Source: Erysipelotrichaceae bacterium (GTDB lineage Bacteria; Bacillota_I; Bacilli_A; Erysipelotrichales; Erysipelotrichaceae). Taken from it: a DNA stretch of 64,000 bases. The notes under the pieces are model-generated. The model searched no databases, had not been told where the DNA came from, and saw only the letters and a list, made by a program, of their open reading frames with translations. The translations under genes were made by a program, and so were the position numbers. Below, in pieces: positions 23,118-34,710 of the stretch (positions within the stretch are counted from its first letter, which is position 1; each line of letters begins with the position of its first letter). Location: contig JAFRKA010000015.1 of assembly GCA_017432005.1 (NCBI GenBank), positions 62,001 through 126,000 of the forward strand. Direction: 5' to 3'.

Positions 23118-23211
23118 TATATTAACGAATTATGCGCTTTTTTCATGGTTTGATCTTTTTGAGTGTGAAACTTACACCGATCGATCAGAAAGAATATTGG
23201 GGTAAATGATT

Positions 23212-26200
23212 ATGAGAAAGAAAAGATTCCTGAATCTCAGTAAACTTCTGATTATTGCAGCACTGTTTGCATGTGTTTTTTCATACCGCATTTATGCGGA
23301 AGAACCAAAGAATGAAGGTTCAGGTACCGATGATACAGTGAACACTGAAGGTACAGGATCTGGAGGAAACGATTCTTCCGGTAACGGTAGCGGAAACCAG
23401 GGTGAAGGAAGTGGTCCTTTCAGCAATGACAATGGAAACCAGAATGAAGGAACTGATTCTTCTGGCAACGCAGGTACTGGAAATGATCCTGCTGCTCCTG
23501 CTTTAACAACAGTGGCAGGAACAGGAGCATATTCTACGACTCCTGGTTCAAACAGTGGCAACGACGAAGGCAATGGTCAGAATGGCAATGGTGGTGATGC
23601 ACCGAAGAGCCCAACTGTTAAAGAAGCTGGTGATTTTTTGGTTACCGGTCCGGATGAAAACAGTGAGTTTGATGAAGAAAAAGGTGTTCTGGTAATTAAA
23701 GGTGATGTCAGTGTAAAAAATAAAGATGATGTTGAAATAACAGGCCAGAGCATTATTGTTTCTGCAAGCTGCACTGTTGTTCTGGAAGGAATCAATATCG
23801 AGGCAGCTAAAGGACCCGCTATTCTTATCGGATCTCCGAATAATGTCACTTTAGCATTAGCGGATAATACGGTTAATACCGTAACCGGAGCTCCAGGTGT
23901 AAACGTCAACGCAACTAAAGGCTCTTTTGCCGGAATAGAAGTTGAATTTGAATTTGAAGACACAGAAACCCCCGCCAATAAAATGGCTTCTCTGACGATT
24001 AACGGAAATGGTACTTTAAATGCGACCGGAAACGCTAATGCTGCAGGTATCGGCGGAAGCAACAGCGCCGGAGGAAGTAAAGGCAGAGGATTATACGGCA
24101 ATATTACAATTGACAGCGGAACTATAAATGCCACAGGTACAGGCGGAGGAGCCGGTATAGGATCCAGCAATAATCCGAATGGTGGAACCAGCATCGGTTC
24201 TTTTAAAGCAACCGGATATAATACCTGGGGAACAATAACGATCAACGGTGGTAAAGTAACTGCTAGAGCAGGCAATGCTGCAGGTATCGGTGGCGGTAAT
24301 CACGTTGACAGCGGAAAGATAATCATCAATGGCGGAACTATAGACGCAAAAGGTAACTCTGGCATCGGATGTGGTACCGGTTCGTCAAAAAACATGGGTA
24401 ACAATGATGATAGCAACAAAGGACCAGGTTACTATTTTGTGGATATTGAAATAAACGGCGGAGACATAACTGCAACTGCAAGTGGAGATGATAACTGGGG
24501 CGGCGCCGGCATCGGTGGCGGAGGTTATGCTGACGCAATTATTAAGATCACTGGTGGAACAATCAAAGCTCAAGGTGGAAGTTGCAAAGATCATAATTCA
24601 TTCCATCATGGTGGTGCCGGTATCGGCGGTGGATATGAAAGTCATGCCAATATAACCATTACCGGCGGTACTATTTATGCATATGCCGGATATTCTGCAG
24701 CTGCTGGTATCGGCAGTGGAGGTACACCAAACTCAAATCCAGACAGAGGTAATACAGGCAGAAGTACGGTAGAAGGAGTAACCAGACTTACAGAAACTGA
24801 AATTTTAATCAGTGGTGGAGAAGTTCATGCCTTCGCTTATCCGGAGAATTATGATAGTACTGTTGCGGTCTGTGACAGAGGTGGTGCAGGCATAGGTGGA
24901 GGAACTGGAGCAGATAAGGTAACAGTTACCATTACCGGAGGAACAGTTGAGGCCTGGGGTGCCCCTTCAAATGAAGATGATATGAATGGTGGAGCTGGTG
25001 GTGGAGCTGGTATCGGCTCAGGTTTATATGCACCAAATCTAACAATTCCTGGCACAAATAACAAAGAATCTGCTAAGTATCAGGTTGAAACTGATGTCGA
25101 TATTTCCATTACCGGAGGAACAGTACTTGCTGTTGGCGGATGGGGAGCTGCTGGTATTGGTTCCGGTGCCAGAAACAAAATGGCAAACACCATAATAATC
25201 GACAACGAGAAAGCAGATGTTGTAGCTTATGCAGATGGAACAAAATTCGCAATAGATACAAGAGATCTTCATGAAGACGGATCAACTACCAGTCATACTG
25301 AAGGAAGAACGATTACCGGATACATGTTACAGGGAACGCTTGTTCATGATTATTCACAACCGGAAGGCGAAACAACTTTAAATCAGAATACTGAAGGTTT
25401 GGATGATATTCAGGTCATCAACGATGAAACTAATGAAAAGAGAATTCTTACAGGTATGCCTTCAGGATATCGTTCTTTTGCAACGACCGTTTCAGAGCAG
25501 GGTATCTATACTGTCTATACAGATTCTGAGCACATTTCAAATGGCGGTGGCAGATATTTTACGGAATATGACTATGATGTGATTCCTGATACTTATTGGG
25601 ATGAAAACATAGATTATGGCAGACTTGTACAATATGCTGTTGGAGATAAAAAGGATCAGTTATCAGATAATTTCTATTTGTATCCGGTTAAATCAATCGT
25701 TGTAAGTAAAGAAGTAAACACTGAAGATGGTCTGGATGTAACAGGAATTAATCTTGCAGCTTATTTTACTATCAGAGAAAAGAAATATGATCTAGATGGC
25801 AATAAGATTACAACCGATGAAGTCTATCTAAAGATAAAAAAAGGTGAGGACATGGTTAGATGGATACAGTCTATCGAAATAGTAAATGGCGTTCCACAGA
25901 ATAAAGTGTATTTCACCAATATTGAAGATAAGACTTACGAAATCCTAGAAGTAGATGAAAAAGGAGAACCGCTCAATACTAAAACAGGTTCTATACCTTA
26001 TGGCGAAATCATTTTAAAGAAGATAAGTACCAAACATGGTGATTTAATACATCCGGATCAGGAGGACCAAAGTTATACATTGGATAACGATGGCATAATT
26101 TCTGCACAGGTCTGGACCGATTATGTAACAGTTGTAAACACTTATGGTATTGATAACAAAGCTGATATTGTGATCAGAAAGATCCTGCCGGCAGAATACA

Positions 26201-26586
26201 GATTTGATCAGTATACTGATATGACAGTCGTATTCAAAGTTCAGGTCGTCAACAACGACGGTGTGACTTACGAAAACCATGTTGGTCTGACTATGGACAC
26301 TGACAGTGCAAGATGGGACAGTGACCTCAATGCTTATGTATATGAAAAGAAACTGAAAGATGTTCCGTTCAATCCGTTAACTGATGAATTCAATGTTGAA
26401 GAAGTCTATACAGCCGGTTATGAAGGAACAGTCAATGCCATCAATCTGATAATAGAAGAAAAGAACAAGTATTATCGTGTTGATACTGTTAACACGGTCA
26501 AGGATTATATTCCAACTACCGGAGCAGTTAACTCATACAGCAACAAGGCCTATGTTCCACAGGCTGTTGAGGAAGGAGGCGAATGA
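23212..26586 (+). CDS. Giant secreted repeat adhesin
   Basis: About 1124 residues. The signal ends near RIYAEEP. A Gly/Asn/Ser/Glu-rich linker runs to about residue 135. About residues 265-690 hold ten AGIGG/AGIGS units, most followed by an I-T-G-G-T-I/V-x-A strand, as in a right-handed beta-helix or carbohydrate-binding surface domain. The C-terminal third looks like collagen-binding-B-type beta-sandwiches. The end carries YIPTTG but has no membrane helix or basic tail, so normal sortase anchoring is not possible as read. GGGG at 23199 fits the ATG at 23212 better than the one at 23206. Base composition is richer in A and T than neighbouring genes, which may mean transfer. Confidence 0.85.
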   Translation: MRKKRFLNLSKLLIIAALFACVFSYRIYAEEPKNEGSGTDDTVNTEGTGSGGNDSSGNGSGNQGEGSGPFSNDNGNQNEGTDSSGNAGTGNDPAAPALTTVAGTGAYSTTPGSNSGNDEGNGQNGNGGDAPKSPTVKEAGDFLVTGPDENSEFDEEKGVLVIKGDVSVKNKDDVEITGQSIIVSASCTVVLEGINIEAAKGPAILIGSPNNVTLALADNTVNTVTGAPGVNVNATKGSFAGIEVEFEFEDTETPANKMASLTINGNGTLNATGNANAAGIGGSNSAGGSKGRGLYGNITIDSGTINATGTGGGAGIGSSNNPNGGTSIGSFKATGYNTWGTITINGGKVTARAGNAAGIGGGNHVDSGKIIINGGTIDAKGNSGIGCGTGSSKNMGNNDDSNKGPGYYFVDIEINGGDITATASGDDNWGGAGIGGGGYADAIIKITGGTIKAQGGSCKDHNSFHHGGAGIGGGYESHANITITGGTIYAYAGYSAAAGIGSGGTPNSNPDRGNTGRSTVEGVTRLTETEILISGGEVHAFAYPENYDSTVAVCDRGGAGIGGGTGADKVTVTITGGTVEAWGAPSNEDDMNGGAGGGAGIGSGLYAPNLTIPGTNNKESAKYQVETDVDISITGGTVLAVGGWGAAGIGSGARNKMANTIIIDNEKADVVAYADGTKFAIDTRDLHEDGSTTSHTEGRTITGYMLQGTLVHDYSQPEGETTLNQNTEGLDDIQVINDETNEKRILTGMPSGYRSFATTVSEQGIYTVYTDSEHISNGGGRYFTEYDYDVIPDTYWDENIDYGRLVQYAVGDKKDQLSDNFYLYPVKSIVVSKEVNTEDGLDVTGINLAAYFTIREKKYDLDGNKITTDEVYLKIKKGEDMVRWIQSIEIVNGVPQNKVYFTNIEDKTYEILEVDEKGEPLNTKTGSIPYGEIILKKISTKHGDLIHPDQEDQSYTLDNDGIISAQVWTDYVTVVNTYGIDNKADIVIRKILPAEYRFDQYTDMTVVFKVQVVNNDGVTYENHVGLTMDTDSARWDSDLNAYVYEKKLKDVPFNPLTDEFNVEEVYTAGYEGTVNAINLIIEEKNKYYRVDTVNTVKDYIPTTGAVNSYSNKAYVPQAVEEGGE

Positions 26587-26588
26587 TC

Positions 26589-27110
26589 ATGAAGATGAAT
26601 AAAACCATTCTGTTCTCTATTCTGTTTGTAGCTGTATCGCTGTTTATGTTTACGACAGTATCCAAGAGCGGTGCCTGGTTCTCCAGTTACAGAGAACTTG
26701 ATGGCGGTGCCAATCTGAGGCTTTCTCATGAGACGACTATTATTGAGCAGATCGATGATGGTAACAAGACCATAGAAGTATATAATTCCGGAGAAACGGA
26801 TGTGGTCGTGAGACTTCAGATCTTTGGAGGAAATTTTGTAAATATCGAAGCCGGAAAAGACTGGACCAAGTCCGGAGACTGGTATTACTACAGCAAAGTA
26901 CTTAAAGCCGGAGAATACAGTGACCGCGGTAATGATGGCGCCGGTATCATCAAAGCAACAGTAATCGGTGATGGTACTCCGAATTTCGACTTTGACGTAA
27001 TCGTCATTGTAGAAGCTGAAAGAGCTGTCTATGACAGCCAGCAGCTGATCGCTCCTTTAGAGACATGGGATATCGAATATCCTGTTTCGGGACAGGGAGG
27101 TAATGCGTAA
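26589..27110 (+). CDS. Small TasA/CalY-like secreted protein 1
   Basis: 173 residues. A basic-hydrophobic signal leads into SKSGAWFSSYRELDGG, like the processing region of SipW-dependent fibre proteins (an aromatic pair shortly after the membrane core, then an acidic turn). A compact beta-rich domain follows, including IEVYNSGETDVVVRLQI. Such proteins form extracellular fibres in bacilli. GGAGG at 26575-26579, within the adhesin's last codons, is 9 bases before the chosen ATG. The link to TasA is by N-terminal pattern and the SipW neighbour, not by overall similarity. Confidence 0.65.
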   Translation: MKMNKTILFSILFVAVSLFMFTTVSKSGAWFSSYRELDGGANLRLSHETTIIEQIDDGNKTIEVYNSGETDVVVRLQIFGGNFVNIEAGKDWTKSGDWYYYSKVLKAGEYSDRGNDGAGIIKATVIGDGTPNFDFDVIVIVEAERAVYDSQQLIAPLETWDIEYPVSGQGGNA

Positions 27111-27868
27111 TGGTTAAAAGATCTATTGCGATATTTACACTGACATTATCCTTTGCGATGCTGCTGTTTGCAGGAATGCAGTTGTCAGAAACAAGATCTG
27201 CTCCTAACCCTGGAACAGAGAACTATAATACTTCGCTTTCTATTTCAACACTCGATATTATGGCTGTTGATGAAAAAGGCAATGAAGTAAAAGAATTATT
27301 GAGCAGTTACAGTGGAAAAGAAACGCTGGAACTTGGAATGCTTTATCCTGAATATCTGGCTGCAGAAAACATTGGAAGAAGCGATGAATATGTCAGAGCT
27401 ATCGTCCGTAAATACTGGACAGATATGAATGGCAATAAAGTTACCAAAGTCGATGCAAAGACAGAAAACAACACTGTCACCAAAACAGAAGCTATCGATC
27501 CGGAATACATCATTCTGGAAGGAAGAGATGCTTCATGGCAGCTGGATGAGAATACTTCCGCAAGAGAAACAAAGATCTATTACTGGAAGAACAAACTTGC
27601 TGCCAGGGAAACTACCGGTGCACTGATGACCGGTATCAAGATCTCCAAAGATGTTCGTGATCATTACGTAGAAACGATCAAAGAGACAGAGAACAGCAAG
27701 ACTATCACTGTCACTTATCTCTACGATAATCTCAAGCTCAATCTGGAAATCGAGATCCAGTCAGTTCAGGCCAATGAAAATGCGATCAGAAGTATCTGGG
27801 GAGTCGATTATCTTTCTGTTGAAGGTGATACCCTCAAGATAAACGGACAAGGAGGCTCAAATGAATAA
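27110..27868 (+). CDS. TasA/CalY-like secreted protein 2
   Basis: 252 residues with an N-terminal signal (MVKRSIAIFTLTLSF, hydrophobic to about residue 25) and a soluble, charged mature part. YNTSLSISTLDIMAVDEKG near residue 45 resembles the first strand of SipW-dependent fibre proteins. There is no anchor. It shares one base with the gene before and overlaps the next by 8 bases, so synthesis is tightly coupled. Specific function is unknown; a fibre subunit or cap is the best guess from context. Confidence 0.6.
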   Translation: MVKRSIAIFTLTLSFAMLLFAGMQLSETRSAPNPGTENYNTSLSISTLDIMAVDEKGNEVKELLSSYSGKETLELGMLYPEYLAAENIGRSDEYVRAIVRKYWTDMNGNKVTKVDAKTENNTVTKTEAIDPEYIILEGRDASWQLDENTSARETKIYYWKNKLAARETTGALMTGIKISKDVRDHYVETIKETENSKTITVTYLYDNLKLNLEIEIQSVQANENAIRSIWGVDYLSVEGDTLKINGQGGSNE

Positions 27869-28553
27869 GATATTCAAACTTGTAATGTGTTCCTTGTTGC
27901 TGAGTCTGCTGTGTATGAATATCATATCGGCAGCAGACGGCGGAGTCGTATATGACGGCAAGAAGATAAAAGTTACCGGTGAAGCTGATTTCCGTGAGCT
28001 TCTTCCGGGTGAGGAAGTATCATTCAATGTGGTATTATCCAACACTTCCAACAAGAAGACGGAATGGTATATCTCCAATGAAGTTCTTTCTTCCTTTGAA
28101 GAGAGCAAGAATAAACCGTCAGATGGCGGTTATACCTATAAGCTTTCTTATAATGGAAAGGAACTGTATAACTCCGAGAATATCGGTGGTAAAGATCTTA
28201 ACGGTCTCAAGCAGCTGAATGATGAGACCAACGGCAAGTTCTTCTATCTCGGTTCACTTGATCCGAAGGCTACAGGAACGATCTCTGTGACAGTTGGCCT
28301 TGACGGTGAATCACAGGCTAACGACTATATGGAAGCCATGGCCGATCTGCAGATGAAGTTTGCAGTAGAAGAGGAGAAAGCCAGCAAGATCACTTCCAAG
28401 AAAACAGTCAGATATTATATGCCTAATACCGGTATAGAGGAAGCTGCACAGAAGAAAGAACTGACAGCATACTACCTGATCATTGCAGCAGCTATGATCA
28501 TGATGTCGGCATCAAGTGCTTATCTGATCCATACCAGAAAGGAGGCCAGGTAA
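27861..28553 (+). CDS. Surface protein with LPXTG-like (MPNTG) anchor
   Basis: 230 residues: a signal ending near IISAADGG, a domain whose LLPGEEVSFNVVLSNTSNKKTEWYI is in the style of TasA-like and NEAT-adjacent beta-sandwiches, then MPNTG, a membrane helix and the basic tail HTRKEAR. That order (motif, helix, positive tail) is a sortase sorting signal with Met replacing Leu. No sortase gene lies in the window. GGAGG is 6 bases before the ATG. It may anchor the fibre made by the neighbouring genes. Confidence 0.7.
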   Translation: MNKIFKLVMCSLLLSLLCMNIISAADGGVVYDGKKIKVTGEADFRELLPGEEVSFNVVLSNTSNKKTEWYISNEVLSSFEESKNKPSDGGYTYKLSYNGKELYNSENIGGKDLNGLKQLNDETNGKFFYLGSLDPKATGTISVTVGLDGESQANDYMEAMADLQMKFAVEEEKASKITSKKTVRYYMPNTGIEEAAQKKELTAYYLIIAAAMIMMSASSAYLIHTRKEAR

Positions 28554-28554
28554 G

Positions 28555-29466
28555 ATGAAGAAACTTATAATGGCTATCCTGGTCGCTCTGCTTATCATCC
28601 CGGTAAGCACAGTTGCGGCTGATGATTATTCTTATGATGTAACAGTTTATACCGGTGATCAGGGACAGTTTGAAGATGGTTCTACTTCCAGGAAGATCAC
28701 AGTCGATCCGGGCAGCGAACTTGTAATTTCGTTCGATTCAGATACGAATGTGATCACTGTCAACGGTACGAATTACGTACTGCAGATGAAAGATACCGAT
28801 TCCAAGTATTCGGCGATCGGTTTCAAGAGGACCGGTTATGACAACAAGCAGTTCATTGCATCCTACAAAGGAACTGTTAATGAAGATCTGAGCTTTGTCG
28901 TAACTTACGGTATCAGTGGCAGTCTGATCGAATACAAAGTTATTTATAAGACTGACAGCGGAACGGTTCTGGGAACATCTGTATACAAAGGCAAGGTAGA
29001 TGATAAACCGATCGTGGCAGCATTGCCGTTTGACGGTTATCTGCCTGATGCCTACAACCGTACCAGAACACTGAAAGAAGGAGAAGATAATACTTTCACG
29101 TTCATCTATCATCCGGCAGGAAGTTCAACAGAAACAGTAGAAGAGACCGAGTATATCACTCTTGATGACGGAACAGTCGTTCCGGCAACGACCGGCGGCA
29201 ACAACACAGCCGCACCGGCAGCAGGAAATACTGAAACGGTCGAACCGGTCGAGATCATCGATGAAGATGTACCTCTGGCCGGACCGAGCGTATCCGATAC
29301 ATCAGAACAGGCTGCAGGCATAGACAATCCTGAAGCTTCGGTACCGGAATTCGCTTCACACGCTACACCGTTCAATCTGATCCTGGTCGTAGCAGGTATC
29401 TTATCACTTCTGATCCAGCTGATGTTCATCATCCTGGCAGAAAGAAAAACAGTAGAGGAAGAATAA
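28555..29466 (+). CDS. Membrane-anchored surface protein with MucBP-like domain
   Basis: 303 residues. The signal ends near VAADDYS. A YKVIYKTDSGTVLG segment and a TFTFIYH end resemble mucin-binding (MucBP) repeats. A Thr/Ala/Glu-rich linker contains DEDVPLAGP, a short motif often found before the wall anchor of Bacillota surface proteins. A C-terminal helix (NLILVVAGILSLLIQ onwards) and an acidic tail hold it in the membrane. The tail lacks the positive charge of a sortase substrate. Confidence 0.65.
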   Translation: MKKLIMAILVALLIIPVSTVAADDYSYDVTVYTGDQGQFEDGSTSRKITVDPGSELVISFDSDTNVITVNGTNYVLQMKDTDSKYSAIGFKRTGYDNKQFIASYKGTVNEDLSFVVTYGISGSLIEYKVIYKTDSGTVLGTSVYKGKVDDKPIVAALPFDGYLPDAYNRTRTLKEGEDNTFTFIYHPAGSSTETVEETEYITLDDGTVVPATTGGNNTAAPAAGNTETVEPVEIIDEDVPLAGPSVSDTSEQAAGIDNPEASVPEFASHATPFNLILVVAGILSLLIQLMFIILAERKTVEEE

Positions 29467-29988
29467 ATGAAAGAAAAACGCAGTATGAACAGCAGCAGAT
29501 CAGTCAGTCTCGTACTGCGTTTTTTTGCGATCATGCTTCTTGGATTCACACTGATCATCACCGGTTCACTGATCGTTCCGCGTATCTTCAACTGTGCTCC
29601 GTACGTGATCATTTCTGAAAGTATGACACCGGAACTGAATGTCGGTGATGTGGTCTATGTGAGAGATGAAGATCCTTCGACATATGCCGAAGGTGATGTG
29701 ATCAGTTTCTACATGAATTCTGATGCTCTGACACCTGTGACCCACAGGGTCGTAAAGAACGATCTGAACAAGAAAGAATTCGTCACCAAGGGCGATGCGA
29801 ACGAGAAAGAGGACATCATTCCTATTCCTTATGAATATGTGATCGGCAGAGTCAAATTCAGGATACCGTTCATCGGCAATATCCTGCTGTTTCTGGAATC
29901 GGTCACAGGCAAGATCATCTTTGTCCTGCTGTTCCTGGCAGGGGTCCTGATGATGGAACTGAGTAGTCTCAAAGCGGTCAGAAAATAA
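29467..29988 (+). CDS. sipW: SipW-type signal peptidase I
   Basis: A membrane-bound signal peptidase of the ER type (S26B), which uses a Ser-His pair instead of Ser-Lys. Seen: an N-terminal helix, the nucleophile Ser52 in SESMTPELNVGD, His93 in VTHRVV, the TKGDANEKED box at about 108-117, and a second helix near the C-terminus. 173 residues, as in SipW. In Bacillus, SipW processes TasA and TapA. Its position directly after four exported proteins points to them as substrates. No start spacing remains from the previous gene. Confidence 0.92.
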   Translation: MKEKRSMNSSRSVSLVLRFFAIMLLGFTLIITGSLIVPRIFNCAPYVIISESMTPELNVGDVVYVRDEDPSTYAEGDVISFYMNSDALTPVTHRVVKNDLNKKEFVTKGDANEKEDIIPIPYEYVIGRVKFRIPFIGNILLFLESVTGKIIFVLLFLAGVLMMELSSLKAVRK

Positions 29989-29997
29989 CCGCTTTTT
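29971..29997 (+). terminator. Terminator ending the adhesin-SipW operon
   Basis: Stem AAAGCGGT/ACCGCTTT followed by TTT, overlapping the sipW stop. It separates this operon from the next. Confidence 0.75.
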
Positions 29998-30011: not shown

Positions 30012-30017
30012 TATAAT
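30012..30017 (+). promoter_or_regulatory. -10 box of the transglutaminase-pilus operon
   Basis: TATAAT, 10 bases before the ATG at 30028, with no Shine-Dalgarno site and no clear -35. Confidence 0.6.
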
Positions 30018-30027
30018 TAGGTTAGTA

Positions 30028-30960
30028 ATGAAGACAGTCAGAATCTTATCTGTTTTTATGCTGGTGATCCTGATGCTGAGTGGCTGTTCATCAGAAGGAA
30101 GCAGTGAAAAGCCGGGCAATGATACACCGCCTGAAAACACGGAAAAATCATCTGAAAAATACAAGGTTCCGGAATATGCGGAAGCTGTTTTTCATGAGGA
30201 TATGGCTGAAGGTGAAGGCGATGTCTATATCGACATCTCAGCTGTTGAACAGGGTTATGTAGCAGTCTCAGCCGTTTCTGACAGCCGACTTAAATTCCAG
30301 GTTATAACAGGTGATACCTATAACTATGATCTGAAGAATGACGGTACACCATCGATCTTTCCTTTGCAGAGCGGAAACGGTGAATATACTTTCCGGGTCA
30401 TGGAGAATATCGTCGATAATTCCTATGCGCCACTTTATGAAACAAGTGCTGATGTGACACTGCTGGATGAATTCCAGCCATATATAAGGACAAACAATTA
30501 TGTTAAATATGACAGAGATTCAAAGTGTGTGAAACTGGCCAGTGAGTTTTCTGCTGATTCCAGTGATGCCATGGATCTCATCGATCATGTCTTTACATAT
30601 GTCTGCGAAAACATCGTTTACGATGCTGATAAGGCATCAAGCGTCACTACCGGTTATATTCCTGATCCTGATGAGACTATTTCATCACGCAAGGGCATCT
30701 GTTTTGATTACGCATCACTGACGGCTGCAATGTTCCGTTCACAGGGCATTCCGACCAAGGTCATCTTCGGTTATGTCTCACCGGATAATCTTTATCATGC
30801 ATGGAACATGATCTATACGAGCGAACAGGGCTGGATCGTGGCGGAATTCAAGATGGATCAGAATAACTGGAATCGTGTCGATCTGACTTTCAGTGCCAAC
30901 GGGGCAAATGCGGAATTTGTCGGCGACGGAAGCAACTATACGGATATATATCAATACTAG
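30028..30960 (+). CDS. Transglutaminase-like lipoprotein
   Basis: 310 residues. Lipobox LSGC lies near residues 17-20, followed by a Ser/Glu/Asn-rich linker. The C-terminal half is a transglutaminase-like papain fold with Cys225 in RKGICFDYA and His257 in YHAWN; the acidic third residue is probably in the AEFKMD stretch. Such domains act as peptidases, crosslinkers or ligand-binding relics. Placed first in the pilus-like operon and just after the fibre operon, it could crosslink or mature surface fibres, but that is inference. Confidence 0.83.
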   Translation: MKTVRILSVFMLVILMLSGCSSEGSSEKPGNDTPPENTEKSSEKYKVPEYAEAVFHEDMAEGEGDVYIDISAVEQGYVAVSAVSDSRLKFQVITGDTYNYDLKNDGTPSIFPLQSGNGEYTFRVMENIVDNSYAPLYETSADVTLLDEFQPYIRTNNYVKYDRDSKCVKLASEFSADSSDAMDLIDHVFTYVCENIVYDADKASSVTTGYIPDPDETISSRKGICFDYASLTAAMFRSQGIPTKVIFGYVSPDNLYHAWNMIYTSEQGWIVAEFKMDQNNWNRVDLTFSANGANAEFVGDGSNYTDIYQY

Positions 30961-30973
30961 GGGGAGTGTGTTT

Positions 30974-32020
30974 ATGGCAAAACAGGGAAAACTCGATCTG
31001 CTGGGGGTCAGTGCTTTCTGTGAAAGCATGGCGATGATGATCCAGTCTGGCATTCAGCTGGATGAAGCAATTTCGCTTTTCACTCAGAAAGACGGCAAAG
31101 GCGGTCTGCTGGATGAAAGCATCACGACCATGGAGAAATGCATCAATGAAGGAAGTACCCTCAAGGAAGCCATGGAGAAGACCGGACTGTTCCCGGAATA
31201 TACACTGCAGATGGTGGAGACAGGCGAATCGACAGGCAAGCTTGAAAATGTGCTTTTCCGTCTTTCCTCGTATTATCAGGAACAGGATCAGATCAGCAGG
31301 AAACTGCGCTCAGCCATTATCTACCCGCTGGCGATGCTGGTGATGATCATCATCGTACTGTTCATCATGCTGAAAGCTGTACTGCCGTCTTTTTCCGGTG
31401 TCTATAACACCCTGACCGGAAGCCTGGCGGACAGTTCCTACCGCTATATAGATTATGCCTACGCGTTCTGCAGGATCGCTCTGGTGCTGATGATAGCACT
31501 GCTCGTGATCTCGCTGATCGCCTGTTTCATGTATAAAGGAAACGGTAAAGCAAAGATACAGAAGCTTCTTTCTGCCAACAGAAGCTGTGCATCGATCATG
31601 GAAGCTCTGGCTTTATACCGTTTCACTTCAGCATATGAAGTACTGCTGGCCAGCGGTATGATGCAGGATGATGCTCTGGAAGAGGCATCAGCCATGTGTG
31701 ACTATGAGCCGGTGAAAAAGAAACTGGATAAGGTAGCTGAACGCATGAAGGAAGGTGTTGGTTTTGCGACAGCTGCCAATGATGCGGAACTCTACGAACC
31801 GATCTATGGCAGGATGCTGATACCGGGAGAAAGAAGCGGCAACACCGAAGATATCTTGAGAAGACTCATCGAACTGCTTTCAAAGTCAGTCATCAATGAG
31901 CTGGACAGACTGATCGCTACGATCGAACCGCTGCTTTCAGGTATCCTGATGATCACGATCGGCATCGCTCTTCTGAGTCTAATGCTGCCACTGATCGGTA
32001 TCATGAATTCCATAGGATAA
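30974..32020 (+). CDS. PilC/GspF-type inner membrane platform protein
   Basis: 348 residues with the two-fold T2SF architecture: domain 1 with FPEYTLQMVETGESTG and SAIIYPLAMLVMII, domain 2 with LASGMMQDDALEEA and a matching LIPGERSG...TIEPLLSGILMI segment. PilC, ComGB and GspF anchor the pilus motor ATPase and recruit pilins. The start at 30974 follows GGGGGAG by 7 bases; a longer frame into the upstream gene is not real. Among the four pilus-related gene types here it is the most recognisable apart from the ATPase. Confidence 0.88.
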   Translation: MAKQGKLDLLGVSAFCESMAMMIQSGIQLDEAISLFTQKDGKGGLLDESITTMEKCINEGSTLKEAMEKTGLFPEYTLQMVETGESTGKLENVLFRLSSYYQEQDQISRKLRSAIIYPLAMLVMIIIVLFIMLKAVLPSFSGVYNTLTGSLADSSYRYIDYAYAFCRIALVLMIALLVISLIACFMYKGNGKAKIQKLLSANRSCASIMEALALYRFTSAYEVLLASGMMQDDALEEASAMCDYEPVKKKLDKVAERMKEGVGFATAANDAELYEPIYGRMLIPGERSGNTEDILRRLIELLSKSVINELDRLIATIEPLLSGILMITIGIALLSLMLPLIGIMNSIG

Positions 32021-32023
32021 AGA

Positions 32024-32338
32024 ATGTATAGAGACAGAAAAAGAAACAATTGGATGATACCTCTTATCATTATGATTATCATGATGAGTGTTTTTGCTGT
32101 ACGCAGTTTCATTAATGAACGTGCCGGCAAAGACAGTGAGGAAGAAAGCATCCTGGCGATAAAGACGGCAGTCGAAAAGAGTGCACTGCAGTGCTATGTC
32201 GTCGAAGGAGCTTATCCGCCTGATCTTAAATATCTGGAAGACAATTACGGACTTAAAGTAAATACTGATAAATACTATGTCGTCTACAATGCATATGCGG
32301 AGAACCAGCTGCCTGATATCAGGGTAGTAAAGAAATAA
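32024..32338 (+). CDS. Pilin-like bitopic protein 1
   Basis: 104 residues: a basic start (MYRDRKRNN), one hydrophobic helix, then a small soluble domain with ALQCYVVEGAYPPDLKYL, which resembles the end of the helix and first loop of type IV pilins and T2SG proteins. The canonical G-F-T-L-x-E prepilin cleavage site is missing. Three bases separate it from the GspF-like gene. Confidence 0.65.
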   Translation: MYRDRKRNNWMIPLIIMIIMMSVFAVRSFINERAGKDSEEESILAIKTAVEKSALQCYVVEGAYPPDLKYLEDNYGLKVNTDKYYVVYNAYAENQLPDIRVVKK

Positions 32339-32343
32339 GAGAG

Positions 32344-32805
32344 ATGAAGCGAAACAAGGATCTGTTGTCAGAGTTTTCAATTATCGGGATCACAGCGTTC
32401 TTTCTTGGCTGTTTCTTTCTGCTGATCATTTTCGGTACCGGTGTCTACAGAGATATCGCCCGTTCCCAGAATGCCAACAGCGAAGAAAGATCTCTTTCGT
32501 CATACCTGCTGACTGTCTCCAAGATGGGCGAGACAGCGATAACTATCGGCAAGAGCGATGACGGCGGAAAGATGCTGGTGATCGAAGACGGTGATACCGG
32601 TTATGGCAACCGCATCTATCTGCATGACGGATATCTTGTTGAAGATTACGGTCAGATCGGCGGCAAGCTGTTCCCGAAGGCAGCGATCAGGATCGCTGAA
32701 GACAGTATCTTTGAAATAGAGAAGATCAGAGAAGACCTGCTGCAGGTCGAGACTGATGCCGGCATCGTCTATATCCATATCAAAAACAGGGAGGCAGCAC
32801 AATAA
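32344..32805 (+). CDS. Pilin-like bitopic protein 2 (DUF4860-like)
   Basis: 153 residues: MKRNKDLLSEFSIIG, one membrane helix, then a domain with repeated G/D-rich turns. Order and size recall DUF4860 proteins, which occur beside GspF-type genes. No prepilin peptidase site is visible. It shares one base with the next gene. Confidence 0.6.
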   Translation: MKRNKDLLSEFSIIGITAFFLGCFFLLIIFGTGVYRDIARSQNANSEERSLSSYLLTVSKMGETAITIGKSDDGGKMLVIEDGDTGYGNRIYLHDGYLVEDYGQIGGKLFPKAAIRIAEDSIFEIEKIREDLLQVETDAGIVYIHIKNREAAQ

Positions 32806-33221
32806 TGAAAAAGGGCAATATGACATTTGCTGTCGAACTGATGGTCATGCTGGTAGTATTCATCGCTGTCATCGAAGTGACGGTTGCCGTCTATGCAAAA
32901 GCCAGGTCTTTATCACTTGATGCCAGACATCTTTCGGATGCGACGATCCTGGCATCCAACGGAGCGGAAGTCTTCCTGGCTGCCGATTCGGATGAAGAGA
33001 TAATAGAGATACTAAACAGAAACAATAATGTGACTGCTGACAAATCGATCAGTATCACTTATGATGACGATCTGAAACCTGATCCTGAAGGAAGGATGAG
33101 GATGGAGATCGAAAGACAGACAGAAAACGATTTCGTCAAAGGACAGATAACCGTCTTCTACGATGATAAGCAGATCTATGATCTGCATACAGGCTATGTC
33201 CTGAACGGAGGTGGACAATGA
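32805..33221 (+). CDS. Pilin-like bitopic protein 3
   Basis: 138 residues. The N-terminus KKGNMTFAVELMVMLVVFIAV is close to a type IV prepilin helix: TFAVEL sits where FTLVEL is expected, with Glu at the fifth position, but Met rather than Gly precedes it. An alpha-helical spine leads to a mixed soluble domain. Of the four small proteins it is the best candidate for a processed pilin. It overlaps the next gene by 4 bases. Confidence 0.65.
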   Translation: MKKGNMTFAVELMVMLVVFIAVIEVTVAVYAKARSLSLDARHLSDATILASNGAEVFLAADSDEEIIEILNRNNNVTADKSISITYDDDLKPDPEGRMRMEIERQTENDFVKGQITVFYDDKQIYDLHTGYVLNGGGQ

Positions 33222-33577
33222 GGAACACTCCGATGAGACTTGGTCTGCTGGCACTGCTGTTAAGCGTGATCGCCATCTGCCTCTCCACTCTGGCCGTGCT
33301 CTCGGTAGCCAGTTCCAGTGCTGATATGCGTCTGGCTGAAAGATTTGCGGACAGTGTATCCACCAGATATGAACTGGAAGAGGAAGGTCAGCGTTATCTG
33401 CAGGAGATGAACAGAAATGTCAGTGAAGATGAGGTGAGCAAGGAATTCAGCAGAAACGGATTCACGCTCAGCATAACATTGCAGAAAAATGAAGACCGAT
33501 ATGAGATAAAATTATGGAAGATAAAGAAACAGTGGGAAGAATCGACAAAGATCGATAATCTGTGGAAGGGAGAATAG
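33218..33577 (+). CDS. Pilin-like bitopic protein 4
   Basis: 119 residues: a hydrophobic N-terminal helix (LGLLALLLSVIAICLSTLAV) runs into an amphipathic helix (SSSADMRLAERFADSV), then a short basic domain. The layout recalls PilX- or ComGG-like minor pilins. No canonical cleavage site. Overlaps the gene before and lies 3 bases before the ATPase gene. Confidence 0.6.
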   Translation: MRNTPMRLGLLALLLSVIAICLSTLAVLSVASSSADMRLAERFADSVSTRYELEEEGQRYLQEMNRNVSEDEVSKEFSRNGFTLSITLQKNEDRYEIKLWKIKKQWEESTKIDNLWKGE

Positions 33578-33580
33578 AAA

Positions 33581-34636
33581 ATGAATCTACATGAGATCCT
33601 GGAAAATGCCATACAGAATGATGCATCTGATATATTCCTGATCCCGGGCGCTCAGGTGACTCTGAAGTGCGGCGGCGGACAGAAACGTCTGGAAGGTGAC
33701 AGACTCGTTCCGGAAACGATCAGTGCCCTGGTCGATGAGATCTACAGCGAATCCGGAAGGACAAAGATCAATCTGGATAACAATCTGGATGATGATTTCT
33801 CATTCTCCATCGCCAAATTCGGACGTTTCCGTGTGAATATCTTCAGACAGCGCGGATCGCTGGCAGCAGTCATCCGTGTCATTCATTTCGGTATCCCTGA
33901 TCCGGAAAAGCTCGGTATCCCTGAGAGCGTTCTTTCCCTGGCTGACAACAAGAAAGGTCTGATCCTGGTCACAGGTTCGGCCGGAACAGGCAAGACGACA
34001 ACGCTGGCCTGTATGATCGACAGGATCAATAAATCCAGAGCCTGTCACATCATCACGATGGAAGATCCGATCGAATTCGTTCATCGTCATGAGAAATCGA
34101 TCGTTACACAGCGTGAGATCTTCATCGATACTCCAAGCTATCTGGAATCTTTGAGATCAGCTCTGCGTGAAAGCCCTGATGTCATCCTGCTGGGTGAAAT
34201 GAGAGACTACGACACGATCTCCGCTGCCCTGACGGCTGCCGAGACCGGAACACTGCTGTTCTCTACTCTGCATACCAGTTCAGCAGCCAATACGATCAAC
34301 CGTATCGTAGATGTCTTCCCGGCATCACAGCAGCAGCAGATCAAGATCCAGCTCTCCCAGATCCTGAAAGGCATCGTCTGTCAGCAGCTGGTCCCGGGTC
34401 TTAACGGTGAACTGATCCCGGCTTTCGAGATCCTCAAGTGCAACAATGCCGTACAGAACATGATTCGTGACGGCAAGCTGCATCAGCTGGAATCAACGAT
34501 GCAGGCAAGTTCGGCTGAAGGCATGTATACGATGGATTCATATCTGCAGAAACTTTATAACGAAGGCAAGATCAGCAAGGAAACTGCTCTGGTCTACTGC
34601 ACAAATTATGATGTGATGTCCAAGCGCATCGGATAA
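33581..34636 (+). CDS. pilT: PilT-type pilus motor ATPase
   Basis: A hexameric secretion-superfamily ATPase on the cytoplasmic face of the pilus machine. 351 residues, the PilT rather than PilB length. Seen: Walker A GSAGTGKT at 132-139, Asp box EDPIEFVH at 161-168, Walker B VILLGEMRD at 201-209, His box STLHTSSA at 228-235, and the PilT-specific AVQNMIRDGK at 290-299 (AIRNLIREGK in retraction ATPases). The PilB/ComGA N-terminal domain and tetracysteine zinc site are absent. It is the only motor ATPase in the cluster and the last gene of the operon. Confidence 0.92.
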   Translation: MNLHEILENAIQNDASDIFLIPGAQVTLKCGGGQKRLEGDRLVPETISALVDEIYSESGRTKINLDNNLDDDFSFSIAKFGRFRVNIFRQRGSLAAVIRVIHFGIPDPEKLGIPESVLSLADNKKGLILVTGSAGTGKTTTLACMIDRINKSRACHIITMEDPIEFVHRHEKSIVTQREIFIDTPSYLESLRSALRESPDVILLGEMRDYDTISAALTAAETGTLLFSTLHTSSAANTINRIVDVFPASQQQQIKIQLSQILKGIVCQQLVPGLNGELIPAFEILKCNNAVQNMIRDGKLHQLESTMQASSAEGMYTMDSYLQKLYNEGKISKETALVYCTNYDVMSKRIG

Positions 34637-34658
34637 CAGTATTAATAAAGGTAACAAA

Positions 34659-34692
34659 AAATCGGTCCAGTTAATATACACTGGACCGATTT
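34659..34692. terminator. Bidirectional terminator after pilT
   Basis: 12-bp stem AAATCGGTCCAG/CTGGACCGATTT with A- and T-rich flanks; the next gene converges. Confidence 0.92.
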
Positions 34693-34710
34693 TGACATAA
34701 TGATCAGGAA

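Follow-up and report, generated by a model that had tools for sequence, protein, structure and literature searches.

According to a 2023 review, every type IV filament system comprises a pilin, a prepilin peptidase, an extension ATPase and a platform protein (PMC10191384). The module described here appears to lack two of these four components that the review calls universal. MSH loci without a peptidase have been reported in a large survey, always in genomes whose other system encodes one (PMC6668835), whereas in many genomes with our module no peptidase is detected at all. The Com (ComG) pilus of monoderms resembles the module in that a single operon encodes a few pilins together with one platform and one ATPase, and in lacking MNOP proteins, but it needs the ComC peptidase, the ComGA extension ATPase and class III pilins, none of which the module has. 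The type IVa pilus shares with it a PilT/PilU-family ATPase and a GspF/PilC platform; unlike that system, the module is devoid of PilB, PilM-O, PilD and a cleavable pilin, its ATPases form a clade of their own, and it stands alone in many genomes. The Tad/Flp (T4c) pilus also relies on a single ATPase, CpaF being reported to drive both extension and retraction, but Tad comprises two platform proteins, TadV, the Flp pilin and TadA/CpaF, while the module has one platform gene. The pseudopilus of type II secretion has subunits of similar GspG/GspJ/GspK-like shapes, yet GspE, a peptidase, a secretin and cleavage sites are all missing from the module. We lean, by a narrow margin, towards the view that the operon encodes a type IV filament-superfamily machine that is complete in itself, has pilin-like subunits that are not cleaved, and is driven only by a PilT-type motor; its function is unproven, and there is no experimental evidence of a filament, of motion or of secretion. 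We found no description of this gene set in the literature searched (including queries for DUF4860 and for PilT combined with transglutaminase), but most subscription journals were outside the search and a prior description cannot be excluded.

Composition and borders of the operon

The module was identified in a stretch of 64,000 nucleotides (hereafter "the window") from Erysipelotrichaceae bacterium GCA_017432005.1, contig JAFRKA010000015.1, forward strand, positions 62,001-126,000 (contig C9 of the assembly). The operon spans window positions 30028-34636, with all seven genes on the plus strand and intergenic gaps of -4 to +13 bp, and encodes, in this order, a transglutaminase-like (TG) lipoprotein, a GspF/PilC platform, four small proteins named here pA, pB, pC and pD, and a PilT-family ATPase. 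The TG lipoprotein (30028..30960, 310 aa) matches PF01841 (E 3e-21) and exhibits the lipobox LSGC and the triad Cys225-His257-Asp285. The platform protein (30974..32020, 348 aa) is a short form of the GspF/PilC type; it meets the superfamily criterion for a platform (PF00482, E 2e-44) and reaches the cut-off of none of the named NCBIfam platform equivalogs listed. The small proteins comprise the probable major pilin-like subunit pA (32024..32338, 104 aa) with the motif CYxxEGxYPxxLxYL, the DUF4860 protein pB (32344..32805, 153 aa; PF16152, 27.7 bits, cut-off 25), a candidate GspJ-like minor pseudopilin, the pilin-like pC (32805..33221, 138 aa) and the GspK/PilX-like candidate pD (33218..33577, 119 aa). 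The ATPase (33581..34636, 351 aa) is the sole motor of the module.

An earlier note, made from the sequence alone, had claimed one operon of this composition, and this held; one correction concerns the GspF gene, which starts at 30974, the longer reading frame from 30893 being a false start. Its further claims, namely that the ATPase carries the motif AVQNMIRDGK, that it lacks an N-domain of the PilB/ComGA type (we found the PilB/GspE N-domain absent) and that none of the four small proteins has a canonical G-FTLxE site, held as well.

Folding recovered a terminator-like hairpin on either side of the operon, both of which had been missed by a terminator scan. One, resembling an intrinsic terminator, follows the upstream SipW gene (29971..29995, plus strand, fold z -3.1, -9.1 kcal/mol), and the other, a strong one, follows the ATPase gene (34658..34693, strand not assigned, fold z -8.0, -21.4 kcal/mol); a T run comes after each. 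Since these predicted hairpins flank the module, it probably constitutes its own transcription unit.

The motor and the pilin-like subunits

The module motor is of PilT ancestry. It passes the PilT/PilU model TIGR01420 (406 bits vs. a cut-off of 319), does not pass the ComGA equivalog test (131.5 vs. 300) or the TadA/CpaF-family test (43 bits vs. 373), and its nearest solved chains are PilT proteins. In a tree that also contains PilB, ComGA and PilT sequences from related genomes, the module ATPases (24/24) fall into one clade (support 100/98) beside the PilT of type IVa pili; one row of this tree, L175, was labelled PilT by length and is actually a ComGA.

Analysis of the small proteins reveals one N-terminal transmembrane (TM) segment in each of pA-pD and no class III site before it. 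The class III signal peptide expected of the superfamily, marked by both Gly-1 and Glu5, is missing, Glu5 being present in pC only. In pC, Glu11 occupies the place of the pilin Glu5 (+5) and is invariant in 54/54 aligned sequences, while position -1 holds Thr in 42/65 sequences and never Gly (0/65). In pD a Gly precedes the TM segment in 71/73 sequences and is followed by Pro in 63/73, without Glu5; neither the Gly site nor Glu5 is conserved in pA or pB. As a control, the ComG and type IVa pilins encoded in genomes of this family retain GFTLLE-type sites.

Structure models, which cover only pA and pB, predict a pilin/pseudopilin architecture for these two subunits. The AlphaFold model of pB (pLDDT 91.7) comprises a helix of 58 residues (3-60) and eight strands, and that of pA (pLDDT 86.1) a helix (11-61), a short helix and two strands. 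The highest-probability Foldseek matches are XcpW (5bw0, 0.57) and EpsJ (3cfi, 0.44) for pB, with E-values that are not significant, and the type IV pilin PilA4 (6xxd, 0.69, E 1.0) for pA; by E-value, other folds rank ahead of pilins for both. When solved structures were searched by sequence with the pA, pB and pC profiles, no pilin was among the matches. Comparisons of pA-pD with ComGC and ComGD by hhalign were weak, and the pA-ComGC alignment, likewise weak, has the expected register; the N-terminal half of pD is related to pC (hhalign, 92.6%). We consider kinship of the subunits with pilins likely, but it is not proven, the matches to solved pilins being weak.

The main rival to our interpretation is a true surface pilus, in which the PilT-type ATPase would act in both directions and the pilins would be either uncleaved or cut by the TG-like enzyme or a signal peptidase. 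This remains possible. In its favor, the combination of a major-pilin-like pA and three minor-like subunits is similar to a full Com set, CpaF has been described as a single ATPase for extension and retraction (PMC11300603), Glu5 of pC is fully conserved, and so is, to a large extent, the TG triad: the Cys and His motifs were found in 72/73 loci and the Asp motif pattern in 60/73, and all three are invariant in 11 relatives. Against it, pA and pC have no Gly site and still carry their basic N-terminal tails, which should hinder extraction, the TG protein is extracytoplasmic while prepilin leaders are removed from the cytoplasmic side (PMC10191384), and the ATPase is nearest to PilT rather than to CpaF or PilB. 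Because of the retained basic tails, we infer that assembly of a long fibre by the module is unlikely.

Distribution of the module and of other pilus components

A single-protein search found pB in 12/146 genomes of the family, including the host, with the seven-gene order in each. A scan of one-per-species genomes with the transglutaminase-like profile yielded at least 583 relatives, and the best 80 of these loci were fetched. The earlier note had proposed tabulating the gene order across Erysipelotrichia and Lachnospiraceae. In 73/80 loci all seven genes are present, share one strand and keep their order, spanning 3.9-5.9 kb; several of the remaining loci are truncated by contig ends. The carriers belong to Erysipelotrichaceae, Lachnospiraceae and Oscillospiraceae, as well as to Coriobacteriia (Collinsella tanakaei ET30, Slackia, Eggerthellaceae). 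The module is common in gut and rumen Bacillota and also present in Coriobacteriia, and an order kept intact across two phyla is far beyond chance.

The host assembly (2.19 Mb, 35 contigs) contains other pilus systems. The earlier note had stated that no prepilin peptidase lies in the window, which is correct; the only one in the genome sits on contig C30, within a complete type IVa pilus locus (pilD, pilM, pilN, pilO, pilB, pilT and pilC). PilB, PilM-O and PilD, the criterion for a type IVa pilus, are thus missing from the operon and present in a separate locus. That locus (G000:C30:1-7800, L013:423-7792) lies near a contig end, includes one pseudopilin, and is followed by GGDEF and GGDEF-EAL genes. 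A separate comG locus lies on contig C33 of the host genome; its operon (L014:6868-10284) encodes ComGC and ComGD as canonical class III pilins and is followed by an apparent EF-P gene.

These loci allow a rival explanation, namely that the operon is an auxiliary cluster of the type IVa or ComG pilus of the same cell, for which the module PilT would be the retraction motor. It is supported by the presence of both systems in the host genome and by the lack of a dedicated retraction motor in the ComG locus. However, the type IVa locus already owns a PilT, the module brings its own platform and pilin-like genes, and many relatives (see below) carry the module without any other secretion ATPase or above-cut-off A24 peptidase, so that this explanation is largely refuted and we regard it as very unlikely. 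"Auxiliary to the host type IVa pilus" was the first reading considered, and it was dropped on the evidence of these module-only genomes.

Full-length PilB is absent from 7/12 module-bearing genomes of the family, some of them 99-100% complete; the well-assembled genomes among these retain ComGA and a prepilin peptidase. We then examined two wider sets. In 45 named module genomes searched for the A24 peptidase and for PF00437 ATPases (E 1e-8 or better), 20 had no A24 peptidase and 25 had one; the module ATPase was the sole PF00437 protein in 18/20 of the former vs. 0/25 of the latter, which had two or more each. To control for completeness, a second set was compiled of 200 genomes at >=97% completeness from the family of Neglectibacter sp. 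X58 (Oscillospiraceae-family). Here pA was found in 27/200 genomes, and A24 above the cut-off was missing in 11/27, ten of them without any match and one (G655) with a single sub-cut-off match (22.6 bits). In all 11/11 the module ATPase is the only PF00437 ATPase at E<=1e-8, while the other 16/27 have A24 and 2-5 such ATPases (p 7.7e-8 for the split, genome relatedness not corrected for). The 45-genome and 27-genome sets share three genomes (G507, G518 and G536), and over both sets there are 27 distinct module-only genomes, in which further ATPase matches are only weaker than E 1e-8.

Two superfamily criteria, a prepilin peptidase and an extension ATPase of the PilB/GspE type, are thus not met in the module-only genomes, where no A24 peptidase above the cut-off was found and the only ATPase is PilT-type. 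The prepilin peptidase thus tracks the other pilus systems and not the module. Absence of the peptidase is based on a single Pfam model, PF01478, which found nothing in 2/14 control genomes, and processing of the subunits by a protease of another family remains possible; most of the genomes searched are MAGs. One genome, G073, carries two full-length PilB-type ATPases on separate contigs (G073:C25 and G073:C33) in addition to the module.

The earlier note had proposed a minimal machine, distinct from ComG, Tad and ordinary type IV pilus systems, with a PilT-type ATPase only, and had named as refutation a separate pilB/pilD locus to which this operon is just auxiliary. The first half of this refutation is met in the host, and since a full locus is present elsewhere in its genome, the minimal-machine reading could not be concluded from the host alone. 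The second half is not borne out by the relatives; they settle the minimal-machine reading, because the module is alone in the 27 genomes, and this reading is supported more strongly than the note had put it.

Gene neighborhood and possible mode of action

Directly upstream of the operon lies a cluster (26583..29988, plus strand) whose genes encode four exported proteins together with a signal peptidase of the SipW type, with a weak match to BsaA. The five-gene set ending in SipW precedes the TG gene in the window and in nine other loci (L094, L095, L098, L099, L100, L103, L105, L113 and L140) and is partial in L120. A third rival explanation is a pseudopilus similar to that of type II secretion, which would export or assemble these neighboring surface-matrix proteins. 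The position of the cluster and the GspG/GspJ/GspK-like subunit set speak for it; yet only a minority of loci carry the cluster, substrates of SipW travel by the Sec route, and the module-only genomes have no GspE-type ATPase, so we consider it unlikely. L099, truncated by a contig end, and L100 combine the SipW set with TG and BTAD without pilus genes nearby. In 28/73 loci the ATPase gene is followed by one for a BTAD-domain regulator, and genes of the Hpt, GGDEF and EAL types often lie nearby; these associations, like that with the SipW set, are stated without comparison to background frequency. PADLOC gave no meaningful match for the module, only P-loop matches.

To return to the machine with uncleaved subunits, the bolder reading, to which we give a slight preference, is a widespread undescribed branch of the superfamily in which a PilT-type motor alone moves uncleaved pilin-like subunits, so that prepilin processing and an extension ATPase would both be dispensable. 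The mechanism is inferred. The pilin-like proteins would stay membrane-anchored, and pA-pD would surround the GspF platform as a short stub or pseudopilus. The PilT hexamer would cyclically turn and pull GspF. No long fibre would be built; the stub would instead act as a piston or tether that moves across the membrane, and would present the TG-like lipoprotein to cell-surface proteins or work with it on them. The most likely use would be surface-matrix deployment or surface sensing, favored by neighborhood only, because of the recurrent SipW/BsaA-like, BTAD and c-di-GMP-type genes. The earlier note had offered as alternatives that one motor both extends and retracts or that no classical pilus is built; our analysis decides neither. 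The module is a natural test of PilT action without PilB and of whether uncleaved pilins can work, and in module-only strains no other such machine would interfere.

Some neighbors deserve separate mention. Just upstream of the SipW cluster, the window (23206-26586) encodes an exported protein of 1126 aa with beta-helix repeats (PF18889, 5e-22), and within the cluster the product of 27861-28553 ends with MPNTG and a membrane tail, like a sortase-anchored protein. In L100 (6027-9786), two TG-like genes and a BTAD regulator lie downstream of the SipW cluster, with no GspF-PilT genes within the locus. In L033 (10544-13787), three genes in a row follow the module, encoding a BTAD regulator whose C-terminus is weakly GGDEF-like, a receiver-GGDEF-EAL protein and an Hpt protein.
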